This document shows positions 5,431 to 29,416 of a stretch of 34,105 bases of DNA, in pieces. A program made the position numbers and the translations under genes. This DNA comes from Candidatus Gemmiger excrementigallinarum (GTDB taxonomy: Bacteria; Bacillota; Clostridia; Oscillospirales; Ruminococcaceae). The notes under the pieces were generated by a model that made no database searches, was not told the origin of the DNA, and was given only the letters and a program-made list of their open reading frames with translations. The stretch covers positions 1-34,105 of the forward strand of contig DXBP01000058.1 in assembly GCA_019116445.1 (NCBI GenBank). The letters run 5' to 3'. Position 1 is the first letter of the stretch. Each line of letters opens with the position of its first letter.

Positions 5431-5993
5431 AAAGAATAAATAATAAAGAATAAAGAATAAATATGGTGGACCGCGGGCCGCGGGCCCGCTCAAAAAATGG
5501 AAAGGTCGCGGCATGAAACAGGATAACATTCTGCTGGAGAAGACCCTGGATTTTTCGGTGCGCATCGTAAACAGCTGCCGTTACCTGCAGCAGGAAAAAA
5601 GCGAGGATGTGCTCAGCCGTCAACTGCTGCGCAGCGGCACCTCCATCGGTGCCAACTGTCACGAGGCGGTATACGGTGCCAGCCGGGCCGACTTTATTGC
5701 CAAATTGCAGATTGCTTTAAAGGAAACTTCCGAAACAGAATACTGGATTCTTCTCTTGGGCCGTACCGGCTACCTGACACAAACCCAAAAAGAATCCCTG
5801 CTTTCCGACTGCCTTTCCATCAAAAAAATTCTGGTTGCCACCCTCAACAAAAGCAAACAGACCACACCCTGACAAACAGGAGATACCGCTCCGTTTTTTC
5901 TGCCTTTACAGACCGGGGTGCATCCCTGTATTGTAGAATTGCGCGCGCGGCGCGCATCCCTATTTATTATTTCTTATTTCTTCTTTATTATTT
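5431..5993. mobile_element. family B element, long copy carrying a four-helix-bundle ORF
   Basis: The ends are AT-rich and mutually complementary (TAA-rich at 5431-5463, TTATT-rich at 5961-5993). Inside them lie the two GC-rich hairpin modules of the family, GCGGGCC..GGCCCGC next to TCAAAAAA (about 5464-5497) and a GCGCGCGCGGCGCGC block (5940-5956). Four shorter copies occur at 20511, 26411, 26904 and 29204. Only this copy holds a gene (5513-5872). It is inverted relative to the short copies with respect to host transcription. Short copies plus a longer one with a four-helix-bundle ORF mirror 23S rRNA intervening sequences. Confidence 0.7.
5513..5872 (+). CDS. four-helix-bundle protein (23S IVS/S23 family, TIGR02436-like)
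   Basis: The 119-aa protein matches the four-helix-bundle family first seen as ORFs in 23S rRNA intervening sequences. Telling features are LLEKTLDFSVRIV near the N-terminus, the hallmark LLRSGTSIGANCHEA (residues 43-57), and SRADFIAKLQIALKETSETEYW. Family members form pentameric alpha bundles; Avd of diversity-generating retroelements is a relative. The cellular role of the stand-alone form is unknown. It sits inside a family B element and interrupts the mnmE-mnmG neighbourhood, so it looks like element cargo. A weak AAAGG precedes the ATG. No reverse transcriptase or variable repeat is in the window, so an Avd role is unsupported here. Confidence 0.88.
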   Translation: MKQDNILLEKTLDFSVRIVNSCRYLQQEKSEDVLSRQLLRSGTSIGANCHEAVYGASRADFIAKLQIALKETSETEYWILLLGRTGYLTQTQKESLLSDCLSIKKILVATLNKSKQTTP

Positions 5994-6037
5994 ACCAATC
6001 GCTAACTTATCAGAACAGCAAGGAAGTAACCATAACT

Positions 6038-7927
6038 ATGGATATTTTGGGAAACTATGACGTCATTGTGGTTGGCGCGGGCCACGCGGGCATCGAGGCC
6101 GCCCATGCGGCGGCGGTGCTGGGGGCCAAAACCGCCGTCTTCACCCTGACGCTGGATTTTATCGGCAATATGCCCTGCAACCCGTCCATCGGCGGCACGG
6201 CCAAAGGGCATCTGGTGCGGGAGGTGGACGCCCTGGGCGGCCTGATGGGCCTGGGGGCGGACGCCACCTTTTTGCAGAGCCGGATGCTGAACCGGGGCAA
6301 AGGCCCCGCCGTGCACAGCCTGCGGGTGCAGACCGACCGCAAGCGCTACCATATATGGATGAAGCACGCCCTGGAAAAGACCCCGAACCTGGACATCCAC
6401 CAGGCCGAGGTGGTGGGCGTGGATGTGCAGGACGGCAAGATCGTAGGTGTGGTCACGTCCCTGGGGGGCTACTACGGCTGCAAGGCCTGCGTTATCGCCA
6501 CCGGCACCACCCTGGGCGGGCGCATCTTTGTGGGCGAGGCCCACTACGACGGCGGCCCCGACGGCACCCACGCCGCCACCGAACTGACGAAATCCCTGGT
6601 AGCCCACGGGTTCACCCTGCGCCGGTTCAAAACCGGTACTCCCGCCCGGGTCCACCGCCGCAGCATTGATTTTTCCAAGCTGGAATGTCAGCCCGGCGAC
6701 CCCGACGAACTGCTGCAGCCTTTCAGCTTTCTGAGCCGGGAGCCCATGCACAACAAGGTGGACTGCTACATCGCCTACACCAACCCCGAGACCCACCGGG
6801 TCATCCTGGAAAATCTCCACCGCTCTCCCCTGTACGGCGGCGACATCCAGGGCGTGGGGCCCCGGTACTGCCCCTCCATCGAGGACAAGGTGGTGCGCTT
6901 CAAAGAGAAAGAACGCCACCCCATCTTTGTGGAACCCTGCGGCGAGGACACCGAGGAAATGTACCTGCAAGGTCTGTCCTCCAGCCTGCCGGAAGCGGTG
7001 CAGAATGCCATGTACCGCACGATTGTGGGCTTTGAGCACCTGGAGATCATGCGCCCGGCCTATGCCATCGAGTACGACTGCGTGGACCCCACCACCCTGA
7101 AACCCACCCTGGAAAGCAAGGTGGTGGCGGGCATCTACGGTGCCGGGCAGTTCAACGGTACCTCCGGCTACGAGGAAGCCGCCGCCCAGGGGCTGCTGGC
7201 GGGCCTGAACGCCGCCCGCCACGCTTTGGGCAAATCCGAACTGGTGCTGGCCCGGCACACCAGTTATCTGGGCACCCTGGTGGACGACCTGGTCACCAAG
7301 GGCGTCATGGACCCCTACCGCATGATGACCAGCCGCAGCGAATACCGGCTCTCTCTGCGGCAGGACAACGCCGACGAGCGCCTGACCCCCATCGGCCGGG
7401 AGTACGGTCTGGTGGATGACGCGCGCTGGGCGGTGTTCTGCCACGACCGGGACATCAAGCAGGCGGAACTGAAACGGCTGGAAAACGCCCACATCAAGCT
7501 GGCCGACCTGCGGGCGGTGGTGCCCCAGGGCACCCAGCTGGGCGAGAGCGGCGGCACGGCGGCAGAGCTCATGCGCCGGCCCGCCGTGACCTACGAGCGC
7601 ATCGCCGCGGTCATTGGCCGGGGCGATGGCGTGACCCCCGCCATGGCCCAGCGCATCGAAACCGAGATCCGCTACGCCGGGTACATTGCCCGGGAGGAGC
7701 GCATCATCCGGGACATCCAGCGCCACGAGCAGGTGGCCATCCCCGAGGATTTCGACTATGCGCCCATCGAAACCATGACCCTGGAAGCCCGGGAAAAACT
7801 CACCAAGATCCGCCCCCGCACCCTGGCCCAGGCCGGGCGCATCCCGGGGGTTTCCCCCAGCGACCTGGCCCAGCTGAGCATCGCCCTGCTGAAAGCCCGC
7901 AGCCAACAGAAAGAGGAATCCAAATGA
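6038..7927 (+). CDS. mnmG: tRNA uridine-5-carboxymethylaminomethyl modification enzyme MnmG
   Basis: MnmG (GidA) is the FAD-dependent partner of MnmE in U34 modification. The 629-aa length is normal. The dinucleotide fold VVGAGHAG is at residues 11-18, [12 protein letters not shown] near 49 and [16 protein letters not shown] near 92. The C-terminal helical MnmE/tRNA-binding domain ends with [22 protein letters not shown]. The ATG at 6038 follows AAGGAAGT; an earlier in-frame start at 5918 would extend into the family B repeat and is rejected. Its stop overlaps the rsmG start by four bases (ATGA), indicating translational coupling. Confidence 0.97.
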
Positions 7928-8628
7928 TCGACAAAGAACGCCTGGCGCAAAAATGTTCCACGTGGAACATCGCGCTCTCCCCCGCCCAGCTGGACCTGCT
8001 GGACCGCTACGCGGAAATCCTGGTGGACTACAACCGGAAAGTCAACCTCACGGCCATCACCTCCCCCGAGGGCATCGAGGACCGCCACTTTGCCGACAGT
8101 CTGCTCTTTGCCGCCCAGCCCGAAGTCACCGGCAAGGTGGTGGACGTGGGCACCGGCGCGGGCTTCCCCGGCGTGGTGGCCAAAATCTACAAACCCGACC
8201 TGGAACTCACCCTCATGGAACCCACCGGCAAACGGGTGGATTTTCTCAAATACCTCTGCGGCGAGCTGGGCTTGACCGGCATTGAGTTTGCCAAGGAGCG
8301 GGCCGAGGAAGCCGCCCGCAAAGTCTGGCGGGAACAGTTCGACGTAGCCTGTGCCCGGGCGGTGGCGGCGCTGCCGGCGCTGTGTGAATACTGCCTGCCC
8401 CTGGTAAAACCGGGCGGACGGTTCATCGCCCTGAAAGGCCCCGAAGCCGACGCCGAAGCCAAGGCCGCCGCCCATGCCCTGCAAAAGCTGGGCGGGCAGT
8501 ACGCCGAGACCCGCACCTTTACCCTGCCCGACGGCAGCGCCCGGGGGCTGGTGGTATGCAAAAAAATATCGCAGACTCCGACGATTTATCCCCGGATCGG
8601 CGGAAAAATCGCAAAAAAACCGCTGTAA
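7924..8628 (+). CDS. rsmG: 16S rRNA (guanine527-N7)-methyltransferase RsmG
   Basis: RsmG (GidB) methylates N7 of G527 in 16S rRNA using SAM; loss usually gives low-level streptomycin resistance. The 234-aa protein has the SAM-binding loop [11 protein letters not shown] (residues 73-83), [14 protein letters not shown] and GGRFIALKG, and the usual C-terminal [13 protein letters not shown]. The gene overlaps mnmG by ATGA. A perfect parS site is embedded in its codons 11-16. A Rho-independent terminator follows the gene. Confidence 0.96.
7954..7969. promoter_or_regulatory. parS: parS site inside rsmG
   Basis: TGTTCCACGTGGAACA matches the bacterial parS consensus tGTTNCACGTGNAACa at every fixed position. 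It lies in the N-terminal coding part of rsmG, where it encodes residues CSTWN. ParB (and possibly its paralogue at 8754) should nucleate here. Confidence 0.9.
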
Positions 8629-8683
8629 CAGCGCGAAATCGCCCGGTTTGGGGCGAACGATTTTTGTTCCTGTTTGCGCCGCG

Positions 8684-8727
8684 ATGTGCTATGCTTTTTT
8701 GTAGAAGCATAGCACATTTCTTTTTTT
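8684..8727 (+). terminator. rsmG terminator, possible attenuator for the noc-like gene
   Basis: A 13-bp stem (8684-8696 with 8705-8717) and an 8-nt loop are followed by TTCTTTTTTT. It closes the mnmE-mnmG-rsmG unit 27 nt before the noc-like start. No clear promoter is seen between it and that gene, so partial read-through is likely. Confidence 0.8.
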
Positions 8728-8753
8728 ACATAGACCGCAGGGAGGAAACCATC

Positions 8754-9704
8754 GTGTCCAGAAAAGAACCCCAAAAGCCCGGCCGCGTACTGCTGCTGCC
8801 CATCGACAGCATCGAGCCGTCCCCCTACCAGGCGCGCACCGCCTTCGACGAACCGGAGATCGCCGCCCTGGCCGTGAGCATTTTGCAGAACGGCTTGCTG
8901 CAGCCCATCAGCGTGCGGCGGGTGGGGCTGCGCAAATACCAGCTGGTGGCGGGCGAACGCCGGCTGCGGGCCTGCCGTCTGGCGAAGCTGGAAAAGATCC
9001 CGGCCATCCTGGCTGACTTCGACGACAGCGAATCGGCGGCCCTGGGGCTGCTGGAAAATCTGCAGCGCAGCCAGCTGGACCCCTTCGACACCGCCCGGGG
9101 CATCAAGGAGGTCATCCGGTTATGGGGCTGCACCCAGGCCGAAGCTGCCCGCCGCCTGGGGCTGAGCCAGCCCGCCCTGGCCAACAAGCTGCGGCTGCTG
9201 ACCCTGACCCCCGAGCAGCAGGACCTGTGCACGGCCAATCACCTGAGTGAGCGCCACGCCCGGGCGGTGCTGCGTCTGCCGGAGAACCGGCGCACGGCGG
9301 CGCTGGAAAAAATCGCCCGGGACAATCTCAGCGTGCGCCAGGCCGACAAGCTGGTGGAGAGTATGCTGGCCGCCCCCAAGGGACCCAGTCCCTGCCGCAA
9401 GACCATCCCCATGGTGCGGGATGTGCGGTTTTTTGTGAACACCCTGCAGCACGCCGTGGACCTGATGACCCAGAAAGGCATCGCCGCCACCACCAGCTGC
9501 GACAAGCGGGACGGCTGCCTGGAATACATCGTGCGCATCCCGGTGGGCAGCGATGGCCGGGTGGTGCCCGGAACCCCGGCGCCGCCTTCCCCCGCTGCCG
9601 CCCAGGCGGCTGTGCCCGCTGCCCCGGCTGTGCCGACCGAAGCTGCCCTGCCGGCAGCGGCTCCCGCCGACGGCACCGAAGATTTCGCCGTGCAGCTTTT
9701 ATAA
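8754..9704 (+). CDS. noc: ParB-family nucleoid occlusion-like protein
   Basis: The 316-aa protein has the ParB/Noc core: ParB box I IEPSPYQAR, the CTP-binding motif GERRLRACR (about residue 64), ENLQRSQLDPFDTA and the helix-turn-helix CTQAEAARRLGLSQPALANKLRLL. The C-terminus is a Pro/Ala-rich tail. The GTG at 8754 has a strong GGGAGGA; an earlier in-frame ATG at 8556 lies in rsmG and crosses the terminator. Position between rsmG and parA equals that of noc in Bacillus. Noc normally inhibits septation over the nucleoid by spreading from NBS sites, but no ATTTCCCGGGAAAT-type site was seen here. It may instead be a second parS-binding ParB. Confidence 0.82.
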   Translation: MSRKEPQKPGRVLLLPIDSIEPSPYQARTAFDEPEIAALAVSILQNGLLQPISVRRVGLRKYQLVAGERRLRACRLAKLEKIPAILADFDDSESAALGLLENLQRSQLDPFDTARGIKEVIRLWGCTQAEAARRLGLSQPALANKLRLLTLTPEQQDLCTANHLSERHARAVLRLPENRRTAALEKIARDNLSVRQADKLVESMLAAPKGPSPCRKTIPMVRDVRFFVNTLQHAVDLMTQKGIAATTSCDKRDGCLEYIVRIPVGSDGRVVPGTPAPPSPAAAQAAVPAAPAVPTEAALPAAAPADGTEDFAVQLL

Positions 9705-9877
9705 CCTGCTTTCTTTACAAAGAAAGTAGGCAAAGAAATTCCAACCATATATCCCGTGGAGTAGGAACTTCCACAAAGCATACCACGCGCCTTTTCCGGT
9801 TTTGCCGCCAATCTTACCTCTTTTTCTGTTTTCCTCTGTTCAGAGTTTCTTCGCTTCCTTCTTTGCAAAGAAGGAAG
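9705..9877. repeat. family A palindrome pair between noc-like gene and parA
   Basis: A near-perfect 26-bp palindrome (9705-9730, centre TTTACAAA) begins on the base after the noc-like stop codon and is followed by GCAAAGAAATTCCAACC. A second, perfect 24-bp palindrome with half-site CTTCCTTCTTTG occupies 9854-9877. The roughly 120 bp between hold no gene and no convincing T-tailed terminator. Confidence 0.65.
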
Positions 9878-9896
9878 AAAAAACCTTCCCCCACCT

Positions 9897-9924
9897 CGCA
9901 AATGTTCCACGTGGAACATTTGCG
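9897..9924. promoter_or_regulatory. parS: parS site within a 28-bp palindrome upstream of parA
   Basis: The parS core TGTTCCACGTGGAACA (9903-9918) sits in a perfect 28-bp palindrome that extends six bases beyond the core on each side. It lies about 50 bp upstream of the parA promoter, so ParB loading here could also repress parAB. This is the second perfect parS in the window. Confidence 0.9.
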
Positions 9925-9968
9925 GGGCACTTTTTATGGCAAAACCCCTTTTTAAACCCTGTAAGCTG

Positions 9969-9977
9969 TGCTATAAT
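9969..9977 (+). promoter_or_regulatory. extended -10 promoter of parAB
   Basis: TGC-TATAAT (9969-9977) is a perfect extended -10 element; only a T-rich weak -35 is present at about 9949. The parA GTG begins 55 nt downstream. Confidence 0.6.
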
Positions 9978-10031
9978 AGTTCGTAGACGCAGTTTTTGCG
10001 CCCAATTTTGCAAAAAACAGGAGGAAACGCC

Positions 10032-10796
10032 GTGGCAAAAGTCATCGCGATCGCAAACCAGAAAGGCGGCGTGGGCAAAACCACCACCGCCGTCAATCTG
10101 AGCGCCTGCGTGGCGGCGCTGGGCAAAAAGGTCCTTGTGGTGGACCTGGACCCCCAGGGCAACACGACGTCGGGGTACGGCGTGCCCAAAAACAAGCAGG
10201 AATGTAACACCTACACCTGCCTGATGGATGACGACGATGTGCGGGATGCCATCATCAAGACCGAGTACAACGCCGACATCATCCCCTCCAACACCCAGCT
10301 GGCGGGGGCGGCGGTGGAGCTGGTCAGCATCCCCCGGCGCGAAATGCGCCTGCGCTCGGTGCTGGCCCCGGTGGTACCGCTCTACGATTACATCTTCATC
10401 GACTGCCCGCCTTCCCTGGACCTGCTCACCATCAACGGCCTGTGCGCCTGCGATACCGTGCTCATCCCCTTGCAGTGCGAGTTCTACTCCCTGGAAGGTC
10501 TTACCGAGCTGATGAACACCCTCAAGACGGTGCGCAAAAAGTACAACCGCTATCTGGACATCGAAGGCGTGCTGTTCACCATGTACTCCGGCCGGCTCAA
10601 CCTCACCATGCAGGTGGTGGCCCAGGTCAAGAAATACTACGGCGACAAGGTGTTCAAGGCGGTGATTCCCCGGTCGGTGCGCCTCAGCGAAGCGCCCAGC
10701 TTCGGTATGCCCATCAACTTCTATGAGCCCAACGGCAAGGGCTGCGAATCCTACATGGAGCTGGCCCGGGAATTCTTGAACAATAACGAGAGATAA
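10032..10796 (+). CDS. parA: chromosome partitioning ATPase ParA/Soj
   Basis: The 254-aa deviant-Walker ATPase binds DNA as an ATP dimer and works with ParB/parS in origin segregation; in Bacillus, Soj also controls Dna[11 protein letters not shown] (residues 10-19) is the deviant Walker A motif, VVDLDPQGN the A' motif and [13 protein letters not shown]alker B. The GTG at 10032 follows AGGAGG and directly precedes [13 protein letters not shown], the family N-terminus. parB starts 13 nt after the stop with its own AAAGGAGG, so the two genes form an operon. Confidence 0.96.
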
Positions 10797-10809
10797 AGGA
10801 GGTACGCCG

Positions 10810-11694
10810 ATGGCCAAACGCAAACTGGGGGGCCTGGGCAAAGGGCTGGACAGCCTGTTTGCCGACCTGCCCGATACAGGCGCCGACGATGCGGGCGTTT
10901 CCACCCTGCCCCTGCGGGAGATCGAACCCGATCCCGACCAGCCCCGCAAACATTTTGACGACGATGCCCTGGCAGGTCTGGCCGCCAGCATCACCGAAAA
11001 CGGTCTGCTCCAGCCCATCGCCGTGCGGCCCAAACGCATCGGCACCGGGTACCTCATCATTGCGGGCGAACGCCGCTGGCGGGCTGCCCGGCTGGCAGGC
11101 CTGGACGAGGTGCCGGTGCTCATCAAGGACGTCACCGACGAACAGGCCGCGGCCCTGGCCCTGATCGAGAACCTGCAGCGGGAGGACCTGGACCCCATCG
11201 AAGTGGCCGAGGGCTGCCGCCAGCTCATCGAAAAATACGGCCTCACCCAGGAAACCGCTGCCAAGCGGCTGGGCAAAAGCCGCAGCGCCGTGACCAACTC
11301 TTTGCGGCTGCTGGCCCTGCCCGAGGATGTGCGCGCCAAGGTCAGCGCCGGGCAGCTGAGTTTCGGCCATGCCAAGGTGCTGCTGGGCCTGCCCAGCGAG
11401 GACCTTATCCGCACCGCCGCCGAGGAAGTCATCGACAAAGGGCTCAACGTCCGCCAGACCGAAGCCCTGTGCAAGAAACTTTCCAAGCCCCCCAAGCCGC
11501 CCAAACCCCAGCCTGATGCCTTCACCCGCCCCAAGCGCGCCGTGGAGGTGGAAGCCGCGCTGAAAGAGGTCACCGGCAGCGAGGTCCATGTGGACTACAA
11601 GGACGGCAAGGGCAGCCTGAAGATCGACTTCTACAGCGACGAGATGCTGCAAAAGTTCGTCAGCCTGCTGGGCCAGTACGATCCGGAGGCCTGA
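10810..11694 (+). CDS. parB: chromosome partitioning protein ParB/Spo0J
   Basis: The 294-aa CTP-dependent parS-binding clamp has the standard N-terminus KLGGLGKGLDSLF, which in the family contains the ParA-stimulating peptide. PDQPRKHFD is box I, GERRWRAARLAG the CTP-binding box II, and the helix-turn-helix covers LTQETAAKRLGKSRSAVTNSLRLL. A C-terminal dimerisation domain ends in YDPEA. It forms an operon with parA. Two cognate parS sites lie 1-3 kb upstream. It is distinguished from the paralogue at 8754 by the complete N-terminal motif. Confidence 0.96.
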   Translation: MAKRKLGGLGKGLDSLFADLPDTGADDAGVSTLPLREIEPDPDQPRKHFDDDALAGLAASITENGLLQPIAVRPKRIGTGYLIIAGERRWRAARLAGLDEVPVLIKDVTDEQAAALALIENLQREDLDPIEVAEGCRQLIEKYGLTQETAAKRLGKSRSAVTNSLRLLALPEDVRAKVSAGQLSFGHAKVLLGLPSEDLIRTAAEEVIDKGLNVRQTEALCKKLSKPPKPPKPQPDAFTRPKRAVEVEAALKEVTGSEVHVDYKDGKGSLKIDFYSDEMLQKFVSLLGQYDPEA

Positions 11695-11700
11695 TCAAAA

Positions 11701-11829
11701 GGGGCAACAGTCGCCTACGGCGGTGCCTAAGGCTCCTGTTTCCCCTCTTTGGAATCCCCTTCGACAAAATTTTGCCCAAAACCGCGCACTCGTCGCGGGG
11801 CTCCTCGCACACAATTTTGGGCAAAATTT
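11701..11829. other. structured intergenic region between parB and serS
   Basis: The 225-bp gap holds no gene. A stem GGGGCAACAG/CTGTTTCCCC (11701-11710 with 11736-11745) encloses two small GCC/GGC hairpins and is followed by TCTTT, so it probably ends parAB. A 15-bp perfect inverted repeat AAATTTTGCCCAAAA (11767-11781 with 11815-11829) spans a 33-nt loop. No T-box motif was recognised before serS. Confidence 0.5.
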
Positions 11830-11919
11830 CCCTGGATGTATCGGCGCCGTCGGCGCATGTCCGCCGACGCCGATGGTTCTTAAATCTTTTCTGTGAATCT
11901 GTAAATAGGAGTGGAATTT

Positions 11920-13224: not shown

Positions 13225-13235
13225 CAGGGTTTGTC

Positions 13236-13261
13236 CCTACTTTCTTTGCAAAGAAAGTAGG
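13236..13261. repeat. family A palindrome after serS
   Basis: A perfect 26-bp palindrome with half-site CCTACTTTCTTTG, identical to the one at the aroD end, lies 11 nt past the serS stop. It is followed by GCAAAGAAATTCCAGAC and then the terminator. Confidence 0.8.
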
Positions 13262-13277
13262 CAAAGAAATTCCAGAC

Positions 13278-13310
13278 AAAAAGGCATGGTCGCAAGACCA
13301 TGCCTTTTTT
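13278..13310. terminator. bidirectional terminator of serS and the lipoprotein gene
   Basis: A 14-bp stem (13278-13291 with 13296-13309) with a GCAA tetraloop has A and T tracts on both sides, so it works for both convergent genes. Confidence 0.9.
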
Positions 13311-13342
13311 GGTTGTTTACAAAGGGTCGTTTGCCCGGCTGC

Positions 13343-14059: not shown

Positions 14060-14086
14060 GGGGTAACACCTCCTTTGATTTTTTAC

Positions 14087-14311: not shown

Positions 14312-14317
14312 CAGATT

Positions 14318-20510: not shown

Positions 20511-20799
20511 AAGAAATAATAAATAATAAAGAATAAATAATAAATTTGGTGGATCGCGGGCCGTTGGCCCGCTCAAAAAAGTAGTGGGAAATGCCGGTCA
20601 AACCGTAAAACCGGTTGAAAAAATTTACCTGCCAGGCTTTTGCGGGGCGATGCCCTGCGGTAACCCGGCCATCCACTCCCAAGCGGGCGGCGGGTGTTAT
20701 CGCCGCGGAAAAACCGGCGGAGTGCTCACCCATCGTTTTAAAATTGCGCGCACGGCGCGCATCCTGATTTATTATTTATTATTTATTCTTTCTTATTTA
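20511..20799. mobile_element. family B element, short copy between yidD and yidC
   Basis: Complementary AT-rich ends flank the GCGGGCC/GGCCCGC hairpin with TCAAAAAA (about 20550-20580) and the GCGCGCACGGCGCGC block (20746-20760). The core matches the copies at 26411 and 26904 (CCCCGCAAAA.., GGTTTTACGGTTTGACCGG in the same sense), with about 70 extra bases. On the transcribed minus strand it has the same orientation as the copies in the gyr operon. No gene was found inside. Confidence 0.7.
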
Positions 20800-20813
20800 G
20801 CTTCATCTCTCCT

Positions 20814-21457: not shown

Positions 21458-21590
21458 GGGAAAAACTCCAAAAAACGCAAAAACGCAAAGTATAAAAGTA
21501 AAAATCTCGTCGCCGTCGGCGGACATCTCCGGCCTAAGAGCCGCTGCTGCGCAGCGGTTGGCCGACGCCGCGCCGATAGTAATACTTTTG

Positions 21591-21626
21591 AAAAAAGGGC
21601 TGCTGACCGACTTGTCAGCAACCCTT
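21591..21626 (-). terminator. terminator after rpmH
   Basis: On the minus strand a 13-bp stem (21626-21614 with 21607-21595, one G-T pair) is followed by six T. It should partly uncouple abundant rpmH mRNA from rnpA, whose own promoter was not clearly identified in the 130 bp between (TATACT near 21490 is a candidate). Confidence 0.85.
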
Positions 21627-21647
21627 TACTTCATTCATTTCCAAAGA

Positions 21648-21782
21648 TCAGACCGTCAGGTTCTTGCGGCCCTTGGCACGACGACGAGCCAGGACTTTGC
21701 GGCCGTTCTTGGTGGCCATGCGCTGCAGGAAACCATGAACACGGCTGCGCTGACGCTTCTTGGGCTGGAAAGTACGCTTCAT
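21648..21782 (-). CDS. rpmH: 50S ribosomal protein L34
   Basis: The 44-aa protein translates as [20 protein letters not shown] followed by [20 protein letters not shown] and NLTV, the canonical L34 sequence and length. AGGAGG precedes the ATG. It lies between its strong promoter and a terminator, divergent from dnaA, as in most Firmicutes. Confidence 0.98.
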
Positions 21783-21864
21783 TTTTCATTCCTCCTGTTG
21801 AATTCCCGGTATGGGCGGTTTGTTTCAGGGCTTTGCCCATACAGGGGCAGCCTTGCAGTCTTAG

Positions 21865-21894
21865 ATTATACGCGATACAGGCCCCTTTTGTCAA
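21865..21894 (-). promoter_or_regulatory. rpmH promoter
   Basis: On the minus strand a perfect TTGACA (21894-21889), 18 nt and a perfect TATAAT (21870-21865). The roughly 75-nt leader contains an 8-bp stem GTATGGGC/GCCCATAC. Confidence 0.85.
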
Positions 21895-22023
21895 TAGGGT
21901 TTGGACAGTTTTTTTCGCCCGAGCGTACAGTTGTGGGGCGTAAAATCCATACCCACCATATTTAGTGGGCGAAGGCTGCCCCGGGGGACGGCAAAAATAT
22001 TCCTACTTTATTATAATAGGGTG

Positions 22024-22052
22024 TTGTTTTGAACCCCCTTTTGTGGTATACT
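22024..22052 (+). promoter_or_regulatory. dnaA promoter
   Basis: TTGTTT (22024-22029), 17 nt and TATACT (22047-22052) preceded by TGG as an extended -10, giving a leader of about 105 nt. No DnaA box was recognised in the rpmH-dnaA gap (21783-22166), so DnaA autoregulation is not evident here. Confidence 0.7.
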
Positions 22053-22166
22053 GTATGTAGTGTTTTTGCGCCCTTCATGAAGCGTAGATGCAATACAAAA
22101 CCTTGTTTTGTACCGTGCTGCGCTGGGGGCGCGATTTTTAACAGGAAGTGGGGAGTATCGTAAGCC

Positions 22167-23477
22167 ATGGATTCCATCAACGACGTATTGGACGCGGCGA
22201 AAGCCTATTGCCGTGAACATACTGCCGAGGCAACCTATCAATACTACATCAGCGACATCAAGGCCGTCAGCTTTGAGAATTCCAACACCATCACGCTGGA
22301 GATCCGCAATGCCTTCATCCTGGGCATCGTATCGGACCGCTACACCGCGATGCTGAAGGATGCCTTCAAATCGGTGCTGGGGTTTGATGTCGATCTTGTG
22401 TTCGTCACCCCGAAAAAAGAGGAAGAACCGGAAAAACCCAAGCTGGACGAAAAAACGCTGCCCAGCGGCCGGTACGATTTCACCTTTGAGAACTTCATCA
22501 AAGGTCCTTCCAACCAGTTTGCCTACGCGGCGGCCCAGGCTGTCGCGGCGAACCCCTCGGGAGCGTACAACCCGCTGTTCATCTACGGACCGTCGGGACT
22601 GGGCAAGACCCATCTTTTGAACGCCATCCAGATCGAGATCAAAAAGAACCATCCGGATTTCAACATCGTCTACGTGGACTGTGAAATGTTCACCAACGAG
22701 ATCATCACGGCGGTGAAGACGGCGACCACCGAGCAGTTCCGGCAAAAATATCGTCAGGCGGACGTTCTACTCATCGACGATATTCAGTTCCTGGCAGGCA
22801 AAGAAAGTACCCAGGAAGAATTCTTCCACACTTTCAACACGCTGCACAACGACGGCCGGCAGATCGTGATTGCCTCGGACCGTCCGGCCAAGGAGATCAA
22901 GAGTCTGGAAGAGCGTCTGCGCACCCGGTTCGAGTGGGGCCTGACCGCCGACATCCAGCCGCCGGATTTTGAAACCCGCGTGGCCATCGTGAAGCGGAAG
23001 GCGGAACTGCTGAACCTGGACCTGCCCGACGACGTGGCGGAATACATCGCCAATCATCTGAAACAGAACATCCGGCAGCTGGAAGGCGCGGTGAAAAAGC
23101 TCAACGCCTACTATATGCTGGAGGGCATCGCCCCCTGCATCGGCGTGACCACCACCGCCATCAAGGATACCCTGAACGACAGCCAGCCCATCCCGGTGAC
23201 CATTGAGAAGATCCTCAACGAGGTGGCGCGCACCTACAACGTGATGCCCGCGGACATCCGGGGCAAGAAACGCAACGCCAACGTGAGCGCGGCCCGGCAG
23301 ATGACCATGTATATCATCCGGGAAGTCACCGGCATGAGCATGGAAGCCATCGGTCAGGAGTTCCAGCGGGATCATTCCACGGTGGTGTATTCCATCAAAA
23401 CGATGGCGGAAAACATCACCAAGGACCAGCACCTGAAAGAAATGTGCAGCGACATCATGAAGAACGTCCGCACTTAG
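22167..23477 (+). CDS. dnaA: chromosomal replication initiator DnaA
   Basis: The 436-aa protein has domain I (residues 1-85), a very short domain II (86-100), the AAA+ domain III with GPSGLGKTH (141-149) and LLIDDIQFLAGKE (201-213), and domain IV with RDHSTVVYSIK, the DnaA-box recognition helix. It binds oriC and opens the duplex. The ATG follows GGGGAG at somewhat long spacing. The TAG stop shares its G with a family A palindrome, after which a terminator separates dnaA from dnaN. Confidence 0.98.
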   Translation: MDSINDVLDAAKAYCREHTAEATYQYYISDIKAVSFENSNTITLEIRNAFILGIVSDRYTAMLKDAFKSVLGFDVDLVFVTPKKEEEPEKPKLDEKTLPSGRYDFTFENFIKGPSNQFAYAAAQAVAANPSGAYNPLFIYGPSGLGKTHLLNAIQIEIKKNHPDFNIVYVDCEMFTNEIITAVKTATTEQFRQKYRQADVLLIDDIQFLAGKESTQEEFFHTFNTLHNDGRQIVIASDRPAKEIKSLEERLRTRFEWGLTADIQPPDFETRVAIVKRKAELLNLDLPDDVAEYIANHLKQNIRQLEGAVKKLNAYYMLEGIAPCIGVTTTAIKDTLNDSQPIPVTIEKILNEVARTYNVMPADIRGKKRNANVSAARQMTMYIIREVTGMSMEAIGQEFQRDHSTVVYSIKTMAENITKDQHLKEMCSDIMKNVRT

Positions 23478-23632
23478 TTCTTTCTTTGCAAAGAAAGAAC
23501 CAAAGAAACTCCAACCAAAATCGAACGATGTTCGATTTTTATAAAAAAGAAAAGGGTCATCCCACCTGCGGGATATGGGTTTGAAAGTTCTTTGCCTACT
23601 TTCTTTCAAGAAAGTAGGTGCAAAGAAAGAAC
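23477..23632. repeat. family A palindrome pair around the dnaA terminator
   Basis: A perfect 24-bp palindrome with half-site GTTCTTTCTTTG (23477-23500) starts in the dnaA stop codon and is followed by CAAAGAAACTCCAACC. The dnaA terminator follows, then a mirrored spacer GTTTGAAAGTTCTTTG and a second palindrome (23595-23618, half-site CCTACTTTCTT). It is the clearest two-sided copy of the module. Confidence 0.8.
23517..23540 (+). terminator. dnaA terminator
   Basis: AAAATCGAAC, loop GAT, GTTCGATTTT and further T (to 23540). It ends dnaA transcription before oriC. Confidence 0.85.
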
Positions 23633-23701
23633 AATAAACTTTTAAACAAAGTTTTCCCTTTTCAACAGGCGGTTTTCAAGAACCGCGGTGAAAAACTCGG
23701 G

Positions 23702-23904
23702 TTTTCCAGATTTTCCACCACTTTCTTCACAGTCGGTGGAGAAAAACTCAACGGCCGTTTTCCGCGCCGTTATCGAAATCCCCGGACTTTTCCACCATTT
23801 TCACACCCCCTACTACTACTACGAGAATAGTTAATAGTTTCTGCTTCCAAAACACGATTCAGTTCGCGGTTTTCTCCCCAAAAAACTGTCCAATCTGTGG
23901 AAAA
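23702..23904. other. oriC: oriC between dnaA and dnaN
   Basis: DnaA-box-like nonamers TTTTCCACC (23711-23719, 23788-23796), TTTTCCAGA (23702-23710) and inverted TTTTCCACA (23896-23904) cluster here; all differ from TTATCCACA at the third base. TTTTCCACC, TTTTCACAC and a C-tract are followed by CTACTACTACTAC (23810-23822), i.e. four 3'-GAT-5' DnaA-trios on the other strand, then AT-rich GAATAGTTAATAG. Box, GC tract, trios and AT stretch match the basal unwinding module known from Bacillus subtilis. The 23633-23980 gap has no gene. Confidence 0.78.
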
Positions 23905-23980
23905 CAAAATCAGAAACAAAAAACCTCTTTTTAATAAACGTCGGGTCTTTCAGCAAACAAAGACCGAGAAAGGACCTGCC

Positions 23981-25090
23981 ATGAAATTTGAATGCGAAAA
24001 ATCCCTTTTGGCATCTGCGATCGAAGGCGTTTCCCGCGCCATTACCAACCGTTCGGCGATCCCCGTGCTGGAAGGCATCTACCTCAAAGCCGAGGGCTTC
24101 AACCTGACCCTCACCGGCTACGATATGGAAATGGGCATCACCACCACCATCGAGTGCAATGTCCTGGTACCCGGTGAAACGGTTCTGGAGGCGAAACTCC
24201 TGCTCTCCATGGTCAGCCGCATGCCCGCCGGTGACGTGCGCATCGAACTCACCGACGAAGGCCAGGCCATCATCAGCGGCGGCGTGGCAGAATTCGAGAT
24301 CCCCGCCATGAACGCTTCCGATTATCCCAGCCTGCCGGTCACCGGTGCCGACAACACCATGACCATCCCCACCAGCATGATGCGGGAACTCATCGAAAAA
24401 ACCATCTACGCCGTCAGCCAGGACGACAAGAAACCCGCCCACACCGGCGAACTCTTCGTCATCGAGCCCGGCAGCCTGACCATTGTGGCGCTGGACGGCT
24501 ACCGCCTGGCCATCATCCAGCGGGACGTGGAATGTACCCGCGACATCCGCATCATCATTCCCGCCAAAACGCTGCAGGAACTGCTCAAGATCATGGGCGG
24601 GCCGGATGACCCCGTGAAGATCGACGCCAACCGCCGGTATGTGGTGTTCACCACCAACGGCTACACCATCATGAGCCGCCTGATCGAAGGCGACTTCCTC
24701 AATTACGAGAGCGTCATTCCCAAAGACAAGAAAACCCGCGTCACCGTGGACTGCAAGACCTTCATCAACACCATCGAGCGCGCGTCCCTCATCATCACCG
24801 AGCGGCTGAAGAACCCGCTGCGCATCACTTTTGCCGAGGACAAGATCACCGTGCGGTGCCAGACGCCGCTGGGCAAAGTGGTGGACGAGTTCCCGCCCGT
24901 GGCCATGACCGGCGACCCCGTGGAGATCGGCTTCAACAACCGGTATCTGCTGGATGCCATGCGGTACTCCAAGTGCGAGCGGATGGTGCTGGAGATCAAC
25001 GGCCCCCTGAGCCCCGTGAAGATTTTGCCCGAGGACGGCAAGGACTTCATCTATCTGGTGCTGCCGGTGCGCTTCAAGAACGAGGGGTAA
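23981..25090 (+). CDS. dnaN: DNA polymerase III sliding clamp (beta)
   Basis: The 369-aa protein has the three-domain clamp length and conserved segments NRSAIPVLEGIYL, LVPGETVLEAKLLLSMVSRM, ALDGYRLAI and the C-terminal PVKILPEDGKDFIYLVLPVR-like end (about residues 345-366). It tethers polymerase III to DNA. The ATG at 23981 has AAAGGA; an in-frame start 84 bp upstream lacks a binding site and family homology. The S4 gene begins 3 nt after the stop. Confidence 0.97.
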   Translation: MKFECEKSLLASAIEGVSRAITNRSAIPVLEGIYLKAEGFNLTLTGYDMEMGITTTIECNVLVPGETVLEAKLLLSMVSRMPAGDVRIELTDEGQAIISGGVAEFEIPAMNASDYPSLPVTGADNTMTIPTSMMRELIEKTIYAVSQDDKKPAHTGELFVIEPGSLTIVALDGYRLAIIQRDVECTRDIRIIIPAKTLQELLKIMGGPDDPVKIDANRRYVVFTTNGYTIMSRLIEGDFLNYESVIPKDKKTRVTVDCKTFINTIERASLIITERLKNPLRITFAEDKITVRCQTPLGKVVDEFPPVAMTGDPVEIGFNNRYLLDAMRYSKCERMVLEINGPLSPVKILPEDGKDFIYLVLPVRFKNEG

Positions 25091-25093
25091 GGC

Positions 25094-25309
25094 ATGGAGA
25101 AGATTCGCATTTTTACCGACTATATCAAGCTGGACGCCCTTTTGAAATTCGCGGGCCTGTGTGAAACGGGCGGCGAAGCCAAGGAACTGATCCAGGGCGG
25201 CCAGGTAAAGGTCAACGGCGAGGTGTGCACCATGCGGGGCAAAAAATGCCGCGCCGGTGACACCGTGGAGCTGGACGGCCAGACCGTGCAGATCGCGGAG
25301 GGCACCTGA
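25094..25309 (+). CDS. rlbA: S4-domain RNA-binding protein RlbA/YaaA
   Basis: The 71-aa protein is a single S4 RNA-binding domain ([27 protein letters not shown] helices, then [10 protein letters not shown]). The YaaA/RlbA family sits between dnaN and recF in many Firmicutes and has been linked to ribosome assembly. It starts 3 nt after dnaN and its TGA shares a base with the recF ATG, so dnaN-rlbA-recF are translationally linked. Confidence 0.92.
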
Positions 25310-26412
25310 TGCGCCTTGAGCATCTGGAACTGACCGATCACCGCAACATCGCCCACGCGGTGCTGGACCCGGACCCCAACTTAACGGTTTTGTGCGGCCC
25401 CAACGGCCAGGGCAAGACCAATCTGCTGGAAGCGGTTTGGCTGCTCACCGGGGGCAAAAGTTTCCGGGGCGCCAAGGACGCCGAACTCATCCGCCGCGGG
25501 TGCGAATTCTCGGTGCTGGAAGGTTCCTTTACCTCCGACGGCACCGAAAAGACCATCCGCCTGACGGTGGGGGCCAAGGGCAGCCAGCGCCCGGGGCGCA
25601 CCGCCAAACTCAATGGCGTGGACCAGGGCCGGGCCGCCGCTTTGGCGGGCAATTTCCAGGCCGTGGTCTTTGAGCCGGACCTTTTGGCACTGGTCAAGGG
25701 CGGGCCGGAAGGCCGGCGCCGGTTTCTGGATTCGGCGCTGTGCCAGGTGTTCCGGCCCTATCTGGTGGCCCTGCGGCGGTATATGCGGCTGGTGGCCCAG
25801 AAAAACGCCCTTTTGAAAAGTTACGAGATTACGCCAAACGGCGCGCTGCTGCTGGACGCTTACAACGACCAGCTGGCCCAGTACGGCGGGCAGATCATGG
25901 CCCACCGGCAGAAATTCGTGGAGGCCCTGGCCCCTGCGGCGGCGCAGAACTACGCCGAAATTTCGCATGGAGCCGAGGAATTTGTGCTGCGGTACCAGTG
26001 CTGCGCCGAAGCCCCCACCGCCGAAGCCCTGGCCGAAAAGCTGGCGGCGGTGCGGAGTTCTGAATTGCGGGCGGGGTTCTGCCTGACGGGACCCCACCGG
26101 GAAGACCTGGACCTGCAGCTGGACGGTCAGCCCGCCCGCATCTATGGCAGCCAGGGCCAGCAGCGCAGCTGTGTGCTGGCCATGAAACTGGCGGAAGCCA
26201 CGGTGGTGGGCGACTTTTTCGGCGAGCACCCGGTGCTTTTGCTGGACGATGTGCTCAGCGAGCTGGACGACGAGAGGCAGACCTATCTGCTCACCCGCAT
26301 GGGGGAGCACCAGACCATCGTCACCACCTGCGACACGGCGGCTTTTGCGCGAACCAACGGCAAGATCGTCTATGTGAAAGGCGGACAGGCGGCGGAAACG
26401 CCGATTTTTTAA
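25309..26412 (+). CDS. recF: DNA repair ATPase RecF
   Basis: The 367-aa SMC-like ATPase helps load RecA at gaps with RecO and RecR. GPNGQGKTN (residues 30-38) is Walker A, YGSQGQQRS the signature and VLLLDDVLSELD Walker B plus D-loop. The start overlaps the rlbA stop. The TAA stop is formed at the first bases of the family B element at 26411, so the C-terminus (ETPIF) abuts the insertion. Confidence 0.96.
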   Translation: MRLEHLELTDHRNIAHAVLDPDPNLTVLCGPNGQGKTNLLEAVWLLTGGKSFRGAKDAELIRRGCEFSVLEGSFTSDGTEKTIRLTVGAKGSQRPGRTAKLNGVDQGRAAALAGNFQAVVFEPDLLALVKGGPEGRRRFLDSALCQVFRPYLVALRRYMRLVAQKNALLKSYEITPNGALLLDAYNDQLAQYGGQIMAHRQKFVEALAPAAAQNYAEISHGAEEFVLRYQCCAEAPTAEALAEKLAAVRSSELRAGFCLTGPHREDLDLQLDGQPARIYGSQGQQRSCVLAMKLAEATVVGDFFGEHPVLLLDDVLSELDDERQTYLLTRMGEHQTIVTTCDTAAFARTNGKIVYVKGGQAAETPIF

Positions 26413-26625
26413 ATAATAAATAATAAATAAGAAAGAATAAATCAGGAATGCGCGCCGCGCGCGCATATTCAAAAAACACAGGGCGGCACCCCGCAAAAAG
26501 GCGGGCAGATAAAACGTATCACCCGCCTTTTACGGTTTGGCCGATATTTTCCCGCTGTTTTTTGAGCGGGCCAACGGCCCGCGATCCACCATATTTATTA
26601 TTTATTATTTCTTCTTTATTCTTTG
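26411..26625. mobile_element. family B element, short copy between recF and remB
   Basis: AT-rich arms (26411-26442 and 26590-26625) are about 85% complementary. Inside are GAATGCGCGCCGCGCGCGCAT (near 26447-26467, with flanking ATTCAAAA) and TTTTTTGAGCGGGCC..GGCCCGCGATCCACC (26559-26589). The 215-bp copy begins in the recF stop codon and ends about 18 nt before the remB start. No gene was found inside. Confidence 0.78.
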
Positions 26626-26643
26626 TTCCATGGGGAGGCCACC

Positions 26644-26916
26644 ATGTACTTTCATGCAGGACAGGACTTTGTGCTGAACACCCGGGACGTGCTGGGGGTG
26701 TTCGATCTGGACACGGCGGGGGCGTCCCGCCGCACCGAAGAATACTTCCGCAAAGCCGAGGCCGAGGGCGCCGTGGTGGACCTGTGTGCCCCCGGCACCC
26801 TGCCCAAAAGTTTCATCCTTACCGATTTCCCCGACGAAACGCTGTATCTGAGCCAATTGTCCCCCGCCGCGCTGAAAAAGCGCACCGGCAAAGTGGACTT
26901 TCTAAATAACAAATAA
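26644..26916 (+). CDS. remB: DUF370 protein, RemB/YaaB-like
   Basis: The 90-aa protein matches the DUF370 family: MYFHAGQDFVLNTRDVLGVF, a central acidic segment, PKSFILTDFPDETLYLSQLS and ALKKRTG. Bacillus YaaB (RemB), a regulator of biofilm matrix genes, occupies the same site between recF and gyrB. GGGAGG precedes the ATG. The last residues (FLNNK) and the stop are encoded by the edge of the next family B element at 26904, so the C-terminus has been extended or altered by insertion. Confidence 0.9.
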   Translation: MYFHAGQDFVLNTRDVLGVFDLDTAGASRRTEEYFRKAEAEGAVVDLCAPGTLPKSFILTDFPDETLYLSQLSPAALKKRTGKVDFLNNK

Positions 26917-27106
26917 AGAATAGATCAGGAATGGGCGCCGCGCGCAAGTCTATAATGCGTGGGCGCACCCCGCAAAAAAAGTCGGGCAGATACTATTTTT
27001 CACCCGCCTTTTACAGGTTGACCGGCATCTTCCCGCTGTTTTTTGAGCGGGCCAGAGGTCCGCGATCCACCACATTTATTATTTTTTCTTTATTATTTAT
27101 TCTTTG
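26904..27106. mobile_element. family B element, short copy between remB and gyrB
   Basis: The same structure as the 26411 copy in the same orientation, 203 bp, with the related core CCCCGCAAAAAAAGTCGGGCAG and CACCCGCCTTTTACAGGTTG. The left arm is shortened and the GC-rich palindrome degraded (GGGCGCCGCGCGCAAG), so this copy looks older. Confidence 0.72.
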
Positions 27107-27171
27107 CAGTATTGCTTATTTCCGGGCCAAGCGCCCATGTACCCAAATGTACCATAGGAGGCACTCACTTC

Positions 27172-29160
27172 ATGGCAGACGAAATCATCACCGAATCCAA
27201 CCGCGAGACGGCGACCGACCACGCCTACGGCGGCGCACAGATCCAGGTCCTGGAAGGCCTGGAAGCCGTGCGCAAGCGCCCCGGTATGTACATCGGTTCC
27301 ACCGGCCCCTCCGGCCTGCACCACCTGGTCTATGAGATCGTAGATAACTCCATCGACGAAGCTCTGGCCGGGTACTGCACCCACATCGAAGTCACCATCA
27401 AGCCCGGCAACATCATCGAAGTTTCGGACAACGGCCGCGGCATCCCCGTGGATATCCAGCCCAAGCTGGGCATCCCGGCTGTCACCGTCGTCTACACCGT
27501 GCTCCATGCCGGCGGCAAGTTCGGCGGCGAGGATTCCGGCTATAAGGTGGCCGGCGGCCTGCACGGCGTCGGCGCGTCCGTCGTCAACGCCCTGTCGGAA
27601 TGGCTGGTGGTCCGGGTGCGCCGGGACGGCGCCGAGTACGAGCAGAGCTTCAAGCGCGGCAAACCCGACGGCGACCTGAAAAAAATCGGCCCCGCTGCTT
27701 CCACCGGCACCACCGTCACCTTCAAGCCCGACCCGGAGATGTTCCAGGAAACCACCCTCTACCGCTACGAAACGCTGCTCAAGCGTCTGCGGGAGGAAGC
27801 CTTCCTCAACGGCGGCGTGCGCATCACCCTTACCGATGAGCGCCCCGAATCCGACCGGCCCAGCGACGAGCAGGGCGCCGAGAACGATGCCCGCAGCGAA
27901 ACCATGTGCTACGAGGGTGGCATCCGTTCCTTTGTGAGCTACCTCTGCGAGCGCCGGGACCTGACGCCCCTGACCCCCCAGGTCATGTATATGAAGGGCG
28001 AAGGCCAGGGCGCCGTGGCGGAAGTGGCCCTGCAGTACTACGACAACAGCTACAATGAACTGCTGCTGAGCTTCGCCAACAACGTCCACACCCCCGAGGG
28101 CGGCACCCACGAGGAGGGCTTCAAGCTGGCCCTGACCCGCGTGCTCAACGAGTACGGCCGCGCCAAAGGCATCCTCAAAGACAAGGACGAGAACCTCTCC
28201 GGCCCCGACGCCCGGGAAGGCATCATCGCCGTGGTCAGCGTGAAATTGCAGGAAGCCCAGTTCGAGGGCCAGACCAAGGCGAAACTGGGCAACACCTTCA
28301 TCAAGAGTCTGGTGAACGGCGTGGTCTACAAGGCCCTGAGCGAGTACTTTGAAGAAAACCCCGCCGCCGCCAAAGCCATTCTGGAAAAGGCCACCCAGGC
28401 AGCCCGCGCCCGCGCCGCCGCCAAAAAGGCCCGGGACCTGGTGCGCCGCAAGAGCGCGCTGGAATCCAACCGGATGCCCGGCAAGCTGGTCGACTGCCAC
28501 GAAAAAGACCCCAGCAAGACCGAACTCTTTATCGTGGAGGGCGATTCTGCAGGTGGTTCCGCCAAGATGGGCCGTGACTCCAACATCCAGGCCATCCTGC
28601 CCTTGTGGGGCAAGATGCTCAACGTGGAAAAGGCCCGCGCTGACCGCATCTACGGCAACGACAAGCTGATGCCCGTGGTCACGGCCCTGGGCACCGGCAT
28701 TGGCGATGAGTTTGATATTTCCAAGGTGCGGTACCACAAAATCTTCATCATGGCCGATGCCGACGTGGACGGCTCCCACATCTGCACCCTGATGCTCACC
28801 TTCTTCTTCCGCTATATGCGGCCGTTGATCGAGCACGGATATGTGTATGTGGCCCAGCCGCCGCTGTACAAGCTCCAGAAAGGCCAGACCGTCAAGTACG
28901 CCTACAACGACGACGAAATGAAGGTGCTTTCGGCCGAGATGCCCGGCGCCAAGGTGAACCGCTACAAAGGTCTGGGCGAAATGAACCCCGACCAGCTGTG
29001 GGAAACCACCATGAACCCCGAGAACCGGGTCATCGTCCAGATCAAAATCGAGGACGCCGAGCGCGCCGACGAAGCCTTCAGCATCCTCATGGGCGAGCAG
29101 GTGGAACCCCGCCGCCAGTTCATCGTCAAGAACGCCAAGTTCGCGAACCTGGACGTGTAA
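27172..29160 (+). CDS. gyrB: DNA gyrase subunit B
   Basis: The 662-aa ATPase subunit has [14 protein letters not shown] (residues 55-68), [15 protein letters not shown] (128-142), TOPRIM EGDSAGG (456-462), DADVDGSH (529-536) and [20 protein letters not shown]. An acidic insertion at about 222-243 adds length. Residue Trp479 in LPLWGK replaces the basic residue usual at this quinolone-determining site (Lys447 in E. coli). AGGAGG precedes the ATG at 27172; the in-frame upstream extension starts in the repeat and is rejected. gyrA follows after a family B element. Confidence 0.97.
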
Positions 29161-29203
29161 TAACATCAACAGGGCGACAACAGGGCAAAGGAACGGTTTT
29201 TTT

Positions 29204-29416
29204 AAATAATAAATAAAAAAATAATAAATAATAAATCAGGAATGCGCGCCGCGCGCGCATATTCAAAACACAGGGATGCCCTCCGGCAGGTCGGCGTTGT
29301 GATACCATTGGCGGCCAGCCAGTATCCAATCATTGCTGCACTTTCCCCGTTTTTTGAGCGGGCCGCAGGCCCGCGATCCACCATATTTATTATTTATTCT
29401 TTCTTATTTATTCTTT
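29204..29416. mobile_element. family B element, short copy between gyrB and gyrA
   Basis: A 213-bp copy with the GAATGCGCGCCGCGCGCGCAT palindrome (near 29240-29260), a diverged core (ATGCCCTCCGGCAGG...) and GAGCGGGCC..GGCCCGCGATCCACC near 29356-29382. Same orientation as the other gyr-operon copies. It ends about 40 nt upstream of the gyrA ribosome binding site. No gene was found in the gyrB-gyrA gap. Confidence 0.78.

Follow-up and report, generated by a model that had tools for sequence, protein, structure and literature searches.

Intervening sequences (IVSs) of rRNA genes exist with and without an open reading frame (ORF), and tandem 7-nt repeats lie between bacterial genes, among them the short tandemly repeated repetitive (STRR) heptamers of cyanobacteria. 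The available parts of a study of Coxiella burnetii describe a 23S rRNA IVS of 428 nt that has a 28-bp terminal stem and an ORF for the protein S23p; tandem heptameric repeats (GACAGAT), whose number varies by strain, precede this ORF, RNase III cleaves the IVS where the first repeat begins, and a mobile origin has been proposed (PMC4990558). In bacteria of the candidate phyla radiation, ORFs of the family PF05635 are found within insertions in 16S and 23S rRNA, according to the accessible text of a second report (PMC11270868). Arrays of the heptamer TAACTGA occur in Beggiatoaceae, Cyanobacteria, and Bacteroidetes, and the portion available of the study describing them raised the idea that an unknown protein binding the repeats might be a mobile part (PMC4679880). 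Here, these systems are compared with five intergenic elements, E1 to E5, in a stretch of 34,105 nt from Candidatus Gemmiger excrementigallinarum (contig DXBP01000058.1, assembly GCA_019116445.1), which is referred to as the window. The elements end in complementary arrays of 7-nt units, and one of them, E1, carries a gene for a PF05635 four-helix-bundle protein. We consider it probable (roughly 55%) that E1–E5 are selfish IVS-type elements, the arms of which are likely recognised in trans by a pentameric ring of this protein, one subunit per heptamer.

The five elements are alignable over their full length, end to end. They stand where a preliminary description of this DNA had placed them, with corrected spans for E1, E3, and E5 (Table 1). 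The AT-rich, complementary ends that it reported are indeed shared by all five; what it missed is that each end is a tandem array of degenerate 7-nt units, left complementary to right, with AAAGAAT/AAATAAT as the dialect of the window. A scan of the window returned nine period-7 segments, every one an arm of E1–E5, the tenth arm (in E4) being decayed. The same scan found no segment at periods 5 and 6, one at period 8, and two at period 9. Read by eye, nine of the ten arms have five AAAG/AAAT-type cores, one with a one-base slip. The background in the genus comes from 30 remB loci (92 kb), with eight period-7 segments in four loci, and 30 mnmG loci (97 kb), with seven in four loci; 12 of these 15 segments are element arms in the genome of the window (G000) and in three relatives (G002, G006, and G014).

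Are heptamer arrays peculiar to these elements, or do they accompany the four-helix gene elsewhere? PF05635 matches are present in five of 35 genomes of the genus (G000, G004, G005, G006, and G014) and in 139 of 295 genomes of the order, from which 115 loci were sampled (the five of the genus, 30, and 80 further order matches, not all matches). Period-7 arrays lie within 500 nt of the gene in 52 of the 115 loci, and in 37 of these they flank it on both sides. At other periods from 3 to 20, both-sided arrays occur at 14 only, which is a multiple of 7; one-sided arrays at other periods include 13 loci at period 18 and six at period 20. None of 120 control windows around Y1 transposase loci of the genus has a period-7 array. 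In a FastTree protein tree, all 49 loci on one side of an edge are armed, as against three of the 66 in the other partition (L108, L133, and L145), and the arm label changes twice on the tree, compared with a shuffled mean of 38 and a minimum of 29. This split was first spotted in the tip order and then checked as an edge, which has a low local support of 0.41. In the genus, GAGGAAT-type arms lie on both sides of the gene in G005 (L036) and on one side in G004 (L039). Complementarity of the flanks in a 300-nt window was discarded as an arm detector: 42 of 114 genes (one of the 115 has too short a flank) score at least 15, against 12 of 675 cross-locus pairs, a signal weakened by the inclusion of the other partition and by arms located farther away, and the period-7 test replaced it. 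In five loci of the armed set (L130, L135, L161, L166, and L172), a clear array starts 164–282 nt upstream and none was seen downstream within 700 nt.

The same holds across many phyla. A divergent (PSNIAEG-type) query was used to find loci on genome contigs, and the best 80 have record titles from Bacillota/Clostridia, Bacteroidales and other Bacteroidota, Treponema, Fibrobacter, Verrucomicrobia, Chloroflexi, Patescibacteria, Proteobacteria, Myxococcales, Atribacterota, Gloeocapsopsis, and others; at least one flank is under 300 nt in nine of them. A period-7 array is present on at least one side in 61 of the 80 and on both sides in 39. The highest other period that is not a multiple of 7 is period 8, with both-sided arrays in four loci, and control windows 1.5–2 kb away contain arrays in four of 138 cases. 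Twelve of 30 plasmid records with a PF05635 match, all cyanobacterial, were also scanned; ten have arrays (seven on both sides) and two (L328 and L329) are below the threshold. Heptamer arrays are thus a signature of the PF05635 family. On these plasmids, one four-helix gene (L320) is flanked by ribonucleotide reductase genes, and others lie amid CRISPR-cas genes, between cas6 and cas4 (L321 and L323) or between cas10 and a cmr3-family gene (L329).

The units have a consensus, a polarity, and a preferred number. After rotation of the units to a common register, the order consensus is A-R-T-K-M-R-N (49 left arms; A 0.90, T 0.92) with 5.67 bits, against 3.79 bits (maximum 3.95) for permuted columns, and the many-phyla consensus is Y-A-G-K-N-N-T (50 left arms; A 0.90, G 0.99) with 4.78 bits, against 3.26 bits (maximum 3.44). 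Right arms, when reversed, give the same consensus, with 5.69 and 4.63 bits, respectively. Mixing the strands lowers the information of the left arms to 4.38 bits in the order and 3.23 bits in the many-phyla set; relative to the gene, therefore, the A-R-K strand is the one read in the left arm and its complement in the right. Arm length peaks at 30–33 nt. When cores are counted with one miss allowed, five is the mode in the armed set of the order (25 of 46 left arms and 25 of 38 right arms) and in the many-phyla set (25 of 50 on each side), and four is the next commonest in three of the four counts. The threshold for a period-7 segment, a score of at least 11, is satisfied by 18 nt, so it does not impose the mode of five.

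Do the two arms pair? The preliminary description had the ends pairing into a long stem, as in rRNA IVSs. Pairing is possible, and as RNA, E1 and E2 fold much more stably than shuffled controls (z of −4.2 and −5.3, respectively); the stem is, however, not visibly conserved. For loci whose two arms each span at most 45 nt, aligning the arms in the centred register brings no advantage over shifts by multiples of 7, with a mean gain of −0.005 for 31 order loci (p = 0.34) and of 0.007 for 25 many-phyla loci (p = 0.37). The arms can pair in any multiple-of-7 register, and the conserved thing is the unit. This result is more in keeping with a reader that takes each unit separately than with selection on a single exact duplex, though the arms may still form a stem. 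It bears directly on a different account, in which the elements serve in RNA handling: the paired arms would form a long stem in the operon transcript, cut by RNase III as in rRNA IVSs, the heptamers would be a by-product of slippage, and the protein would be a chaperone or a relic. That account draws on the two RNA folds, on the position of E3–E5 between co-directional ORFs, and on the Coxiella IVS, which in the available text combines the RNase III cut at the first heptamer and the variable heptamer number with a protein that is seemingly not made (PMC4990558). Set against this are the indifference of the arms to register and the fact that slippage alone predicts neither a family-wide polar unit consensus nor a mode at five. 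We regard it as unlikely, yet worth keeping in view.

The protein of E1 is a clear family member, with PF05635 matched at 1.5e-23 (83.5 bits against a cut-off of 33.8) and TIGR02436 at 4.3e-27 (94.5 bits against a cut-off of 24). The ORF lies in E1, in agreement with the earlier picture of one long copy with the ORF and four empty ones, and the gene is the single PF05635 match in its assembly. Pfam and NCBIfam searches of the 119-aa protein returned the four-helix family and chance-level matches only, and no catalytic domain. An AlphaFold2 monomer model has a mean pLDDT of 94. The nearest solved relative, 2RLD, has 54–55% identity and a TM score of 0.86–0.90, and a second, 2GSC, has 21–23% identity and a TM score of 0.76–0.81; each structure has five chains. 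The 2GSC protein, from Xanthomonas, is described as a toroidal homopentamer in the part of the source available (PMC4990558), and the E1 protein is predicted to be a homopentameric ring as well. Chains of Avd, the accessory protein of diversity-generating retroelements (DGRs), resemble the model more distantly (4DWL, 8UBE, and 8UB7; TM 0.72–0.78, E 0.02–0.06, 12–14% identity), and unrelated bundles such as pectin methylesterase inhibitors match it at the same E level. For one pair of four-helix genes, dN is 0.26 and dS is 2.0, which is at most suggestive of selection on the gene; dS was not computable for two other pairs.

How might a protein of this kind act on the arms? Five units, their strand polarity, and the five chains of the solved relatives make one subunit per heptamer the simplest reading, in which the five repeats would correspond to the five subunits. 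The protein would then bind the arms and have a role in mobility or RNA handling. The elements would spread as selfish elements, each end being an inverted array of about five 7-nt units, and the ring might read the arms as RNA or single-stranded DNA. The TRAP ring, which reads NAG repeats, offers a comparison. The ring may hold or deliver the ends, with the chemistry coming from host enzymes or from another element; such enzymes are invoked because the profile searches gave nothing beyond the four-helix family apart from matches at chance level. For empty copies, the protein would have to come from elsewhere, or these copies may be relics.

Several findings weigh against selfish elements read by a five-subunit ring. 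Gene and element do not always coincide: G002, G013, and G033 have copies and no PF05635 match, G004 and G005 have the gene and no match to the 5' module of the window (described below), and in the many-phyla set, no arm exceeds the threshold for 19 of the 80 genes. The number five is not universal, as 84 of the 184 arms counted have other than five units, and there is no pairwise constraint between the two arms in the register test. The four-helix domain has a median net charge of just +1 and a pI of about 8. The seven module matches of the genome are confined to two of its 67 contigs (C45 and C43), five of them on the 34-kb contig of the window. The gene stands in the mnmG gap in G000, G006, and G014, so that descent or repeated targeting accounts for part of the spread, and the flanks of filled and empty sites are too different for a target duplication to be read. 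Finally, S23p of Coxiella is probably not made in vivo and its region decays, as stated in the accessible text (PMC4990558); the protein may thus be dispensable there.

The distribution among relatives is consistent with elements that come and go. The sites of E1, E3, and E4 are empty in relatives, one of the outcomes looked for in the preliminary description. E1, which lies in the gap between an ORF of 153 aa and mnmG, is absent 5' of mnmG in G002, G008, G021, G025, G026, and G034, all of which share the neighbouring gene, and there is no four-helix element at this place in G001, G003, G004, G005, G013, G024, and G033; one is present in G006 and G014, as in G000. E3 and E4, in the recF–remB–gyrB region, are found in G000 and in G002, where half of E4 is replaced. 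No element of this type is present in the flanks of 13 other genomes examined, G027 having a single array of another dialect, and among the 30 remB loci, period-7 segments are limited to L260 (G000), L264 (G002), L273 (G027), and L288. Repeated insertion and loss are indistinguishable from this comparison of sites. In G000, the recF stop codon lies inside the left arm of E3 and the remB stop codon inside the decayed arm of E4; the recF and remB genes of relatives end differently from these versions, whose stops come from element arms. With stop codons in its units, as in the dialect of the window, a copy that lands at the 3' end of a gene could close the reading frame at little cost.

Could the arrays instead be fixed regulatory repeats, operator or leader sites through which a four-helix regulator controls its own and neighbouring genes? 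A gapped double array upstream of the gene in the other tree partition would suit such a role, and the TAACTGA heptamers of Beggiatoaceae were proposed to be regulatory in the text available of that study (PMC4679880). Gene-less copies at unrelated sites, the bounded, two-ended structure, and presence or absence between relatives point the other way, making a non-mobile regulatory system improbable.

Inside the arms, the elements share a further plan. From the outside in, the AT-rich arm is followed by GGTGGAYC, a 7-bp GC hairpin, and GCTCAAAAA, and then by a variable middle; the 3' half has a second GC hairpin module (TTGCGCGCGCGGCGCGCATYCC) and ends in the complementary arm. The two inner GC-rich modules of the preliminary description were both recovered, and covariation was seen for the 5' one. 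As a 32-nt pattern (GGTGGAYCGCGGNCCNNNGGNCCGCTCAAAAA, up to three mismatches), the 5' module matches all of E1–E5 without mismatch and gives two extra matches in the assembly, on contig C43, with one and three mismatches; the reversed pattern gives none. One of the C43 copies is complete; in the other, a 5' end is present but a clear 3' end is missing. A version of the pattern with a 4-nt loop had four matches against eight in its reversed control and was dropped for GGTGGAYCGCGGNCCNNNGGNCCGCTCAAAAA. Across the genus, there are seven module matches in G000, ten in G002, eight in G006, two in G013, one in G014, and 17 in G033, and none in the other 29 of the 35 genomes. Covariation was scored for the 5' module in 30 of these 45 matches (six genomes, 22 distinct rows). 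Paired cells make up 91.6%, a fraction biased upward since the search pattern fixes part of the stem; covariation is 0.265 against 0.067 when shuffled, and 17 cells are changed on both sides against 7.3, values that none of 500 shuffles reaches. Two of the five measures are not above the shuffles (double-change pairs, 3 against 2.4; further pair types, 4 against 4.0).

This layout, a short motif plus a hairpin in inverted pairs, is also that of REPIN and BIME sequences, which are intergenic. The window elements have the inverted-pair layout, with GGTGGA and its hairpin inverted relative to the second hairpin. They could then be passengers: inverted GTGG-and-hairpin doublets mobilised by a Y1 (RAYT) transposase and carrying the four-helix gene as cargo. 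Five of the six genomes with copies do have Y1 matches, weak in G006, G013, G014, and G033, and one strong match plus one fragment in G000; two of the matches, L053 and L066, we take from reading them to be RAYT-like. However, G002 combines ten module matches with the absence of any Y1 match, and of the 19 genomes in which Y1 was matched, 14 gave no module match. GTAG-type palindrome pairs are, moreover, separate units in the same genomes, some of them inside elements, and heptamer arms are not known as a feature of REPINs. REPIN/RAYT was set aside as the main mechanism and appears highly improbable. The flanks of nine Y1 loci were inspected, unsystematically. In three loci of G006 (L023, L026, and L032), pairs of GTAGGGGCGCATTC-type palindromes, presumably REPIN-like, occupy the stretch between the two hairpin modules of empty heptamer elements. 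The gyrB–gyrA gap, which is the site of E5 in the window, is filled by a weak Y1 match in G006 (L066) and in G024 (L057), both RAYT-like as we read them.

A second architecture accompanies the gene in the other partition of the order tree. By the standard that the preliminary description set for itself, four-helix genes without such ends would count against it, and in part they do: 63 of the 115 order genes lack tandem arms, and all 63 fall in one of the two tree partitions. Of the 66 loci in that partition, 54 have a 7-mer at least three times upstream and then its complement at least three times, within 330 nt (one mismatch allowed, regular spacing not demanded), as against two of 66 after one mononucleotide shuffle per locus. 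In many loci, successive units are spaced by about 18 nt on the left side and about 22 nt on the right, with three to five units per side; others are irregular (e.g., L110, L121, L159, and L175). Examples are AATGATG/CATCATT, GTGAAG/CTTCAC, and AGCTAAAT/ATTTAGCT. The gaps between the repeats, read by eye, look like mini-hairpins, and the tandem and gapped architectures may represent one recognition code. An identity of this partition with Avd of DGRs was considered and rejected, as no reverse transcriptase was noticed on reading the ORFs of eight loci, with no domain search run. In L086, L111, L113, and L153, what looks by eye like the 3' end of a tRNA gene stands at the start of the upstream region, accompanied in three of these loci by a terminator-like hairpin.

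More tentatively, and with the odds somewhat against it, one may think of selfish elements with a number code found bacteria-wide, in which every end presents five heptamers and a catalytically silent ring of five subunits, taking one heptamer with each subunit, joins or delivers the ends; STRRs, TAACTGA arrays, rRNA IVSs, and the window elements would be its footprints, and the gapped arrays a second dialect with linkers folded as hairpins. PF05635 is common in the order, yet its family names say just S23/IVP or four-helix-bundle protein. A cis-signature across phyla, together with a unit number that matches a chain number, gives the family a testable target and suggests a reader for the heptanucleotide repeats described separately in different groups and so far lacking a known partner.

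The features of the window are collected in Table 1. The neighbouring genes named here, mnmE, mnmG, recF, remB, gyrB, gyrA, dnaA, and yidC, are presumed from their ORF translations. The contig also has the ORF read as dnaA; the concentration of modules on it may reflect clustering near the origin or uneven binning. A second intergenic repeat family consists of palindromes of the TACTTTCTTTGCAAAGAAAGTA/TTCCTTCTTTGCAAAGAAGGAA type, with ...AAAGAAACTCCAAC adjoining, and similar palindromes lie 5' of remB in G008, G025, G026, and G034.

Table 1. Elements, their parts, and second-family palindromes in the window.
Feature	Position	Strand	Details
E1, ORF-bearing copy	5431-5994	+	564 bp; end-to-end alignment, period-7 arms
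E1 5' arm, five 7-nt units, AAAG/AAAT cores	5431-5463	+	period-7 scan; units counted by eye
E1 5' module, GGTGGA + hairpin + TCAAAAA	5465-5496	+	pattern match, covariation
Four-helix-bundle protein gene, PF05635 / TIGR02436, 119 aa	5513-5872	+	profile searches
E1 3' module, GC hairpin TTGCGCGCGCGGCGCGCATCCC	5935-5960	+	element alignment
E1 3' arm, five complementary units	5961-5994	+	period-7 scan; units counted by eye
E2, empty copy	20511-20799	+	arms 20511-20545, 20767-20799; 5' module 20548-20579
E3, empty copy, recF-remB gap	26410-26625	-	arms 26410-26441, 26592-26625; 5' module 26559-26590
E4, empty copy, remB-gyrB gap	about 26904-27106	-	good arm 27074-27106; 5' module 27040-27071; other arm decayed
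E5, empty copy, gyrB-gyrA gap	29203-29416	-	arms 29203-29236, 29384-29416; 5' module 29351-29382
Second-family palindromes	3177-3224, 9704-9751, 9855-9889, 13235-13282, 23475-23522, 23594-23641, 33763-33810		

How do the window elements compare with the known systems? They differ from REPIN/BIME sequences in being longer and heptamer-armed and in having a four-helix gene, instead of a Y1 transposase, linked to them. The likeness of their protein to Avd is one of fold, the four-helix bundle, set against the low identity and marginal E values given above; the accessible part of one report says that PF05635 resembles Avd (PMC10053308). With the TAACTGA arrays, they share intergenic tandem 7-nt repeats, and on the reverse strand that heptamer is readable as CAGTTAT, which fits Y-A-G-K-N-N-T; neither "four helix" nor "S23" occurs in the main text of the study, as far as available (PMC4679880). 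A general link between heptamer arrays and PF05635 was not found in the literature searched, where coverage of preprints and subscription papers was thin.

The closest comparison remains that with the rRNA IVSs. There is no rRNA match in the window, where E1–E5 lie between protein ORFs, and no large-subunit rRNA gene was found in the assembly; in Rfam, none of the 80 many-phyla loci has an rRNA match, rRNA possibly being under-represented in such contigs. The kinship proposed in the preliminary description holds in kind; the location that defines rRNA IVSs is not shared. The window elements differ from 23S rRNA IVSs in being intergenic and multi-copy, in their two hairpin modules, and in lying outside rRNA genes; they resemble them in the PF05635 protein, in the complementary ends, in the pattern of a long copy (E1) with the ORF and short copies (E2–E5) without it, and, for Coxiella as described in the available text (PMC4990558), in the tandem heptamers before the ORF. 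A ring that reads heptamers would tie the intergenic elements of the window to these puzzling insertions in rRNA genes.

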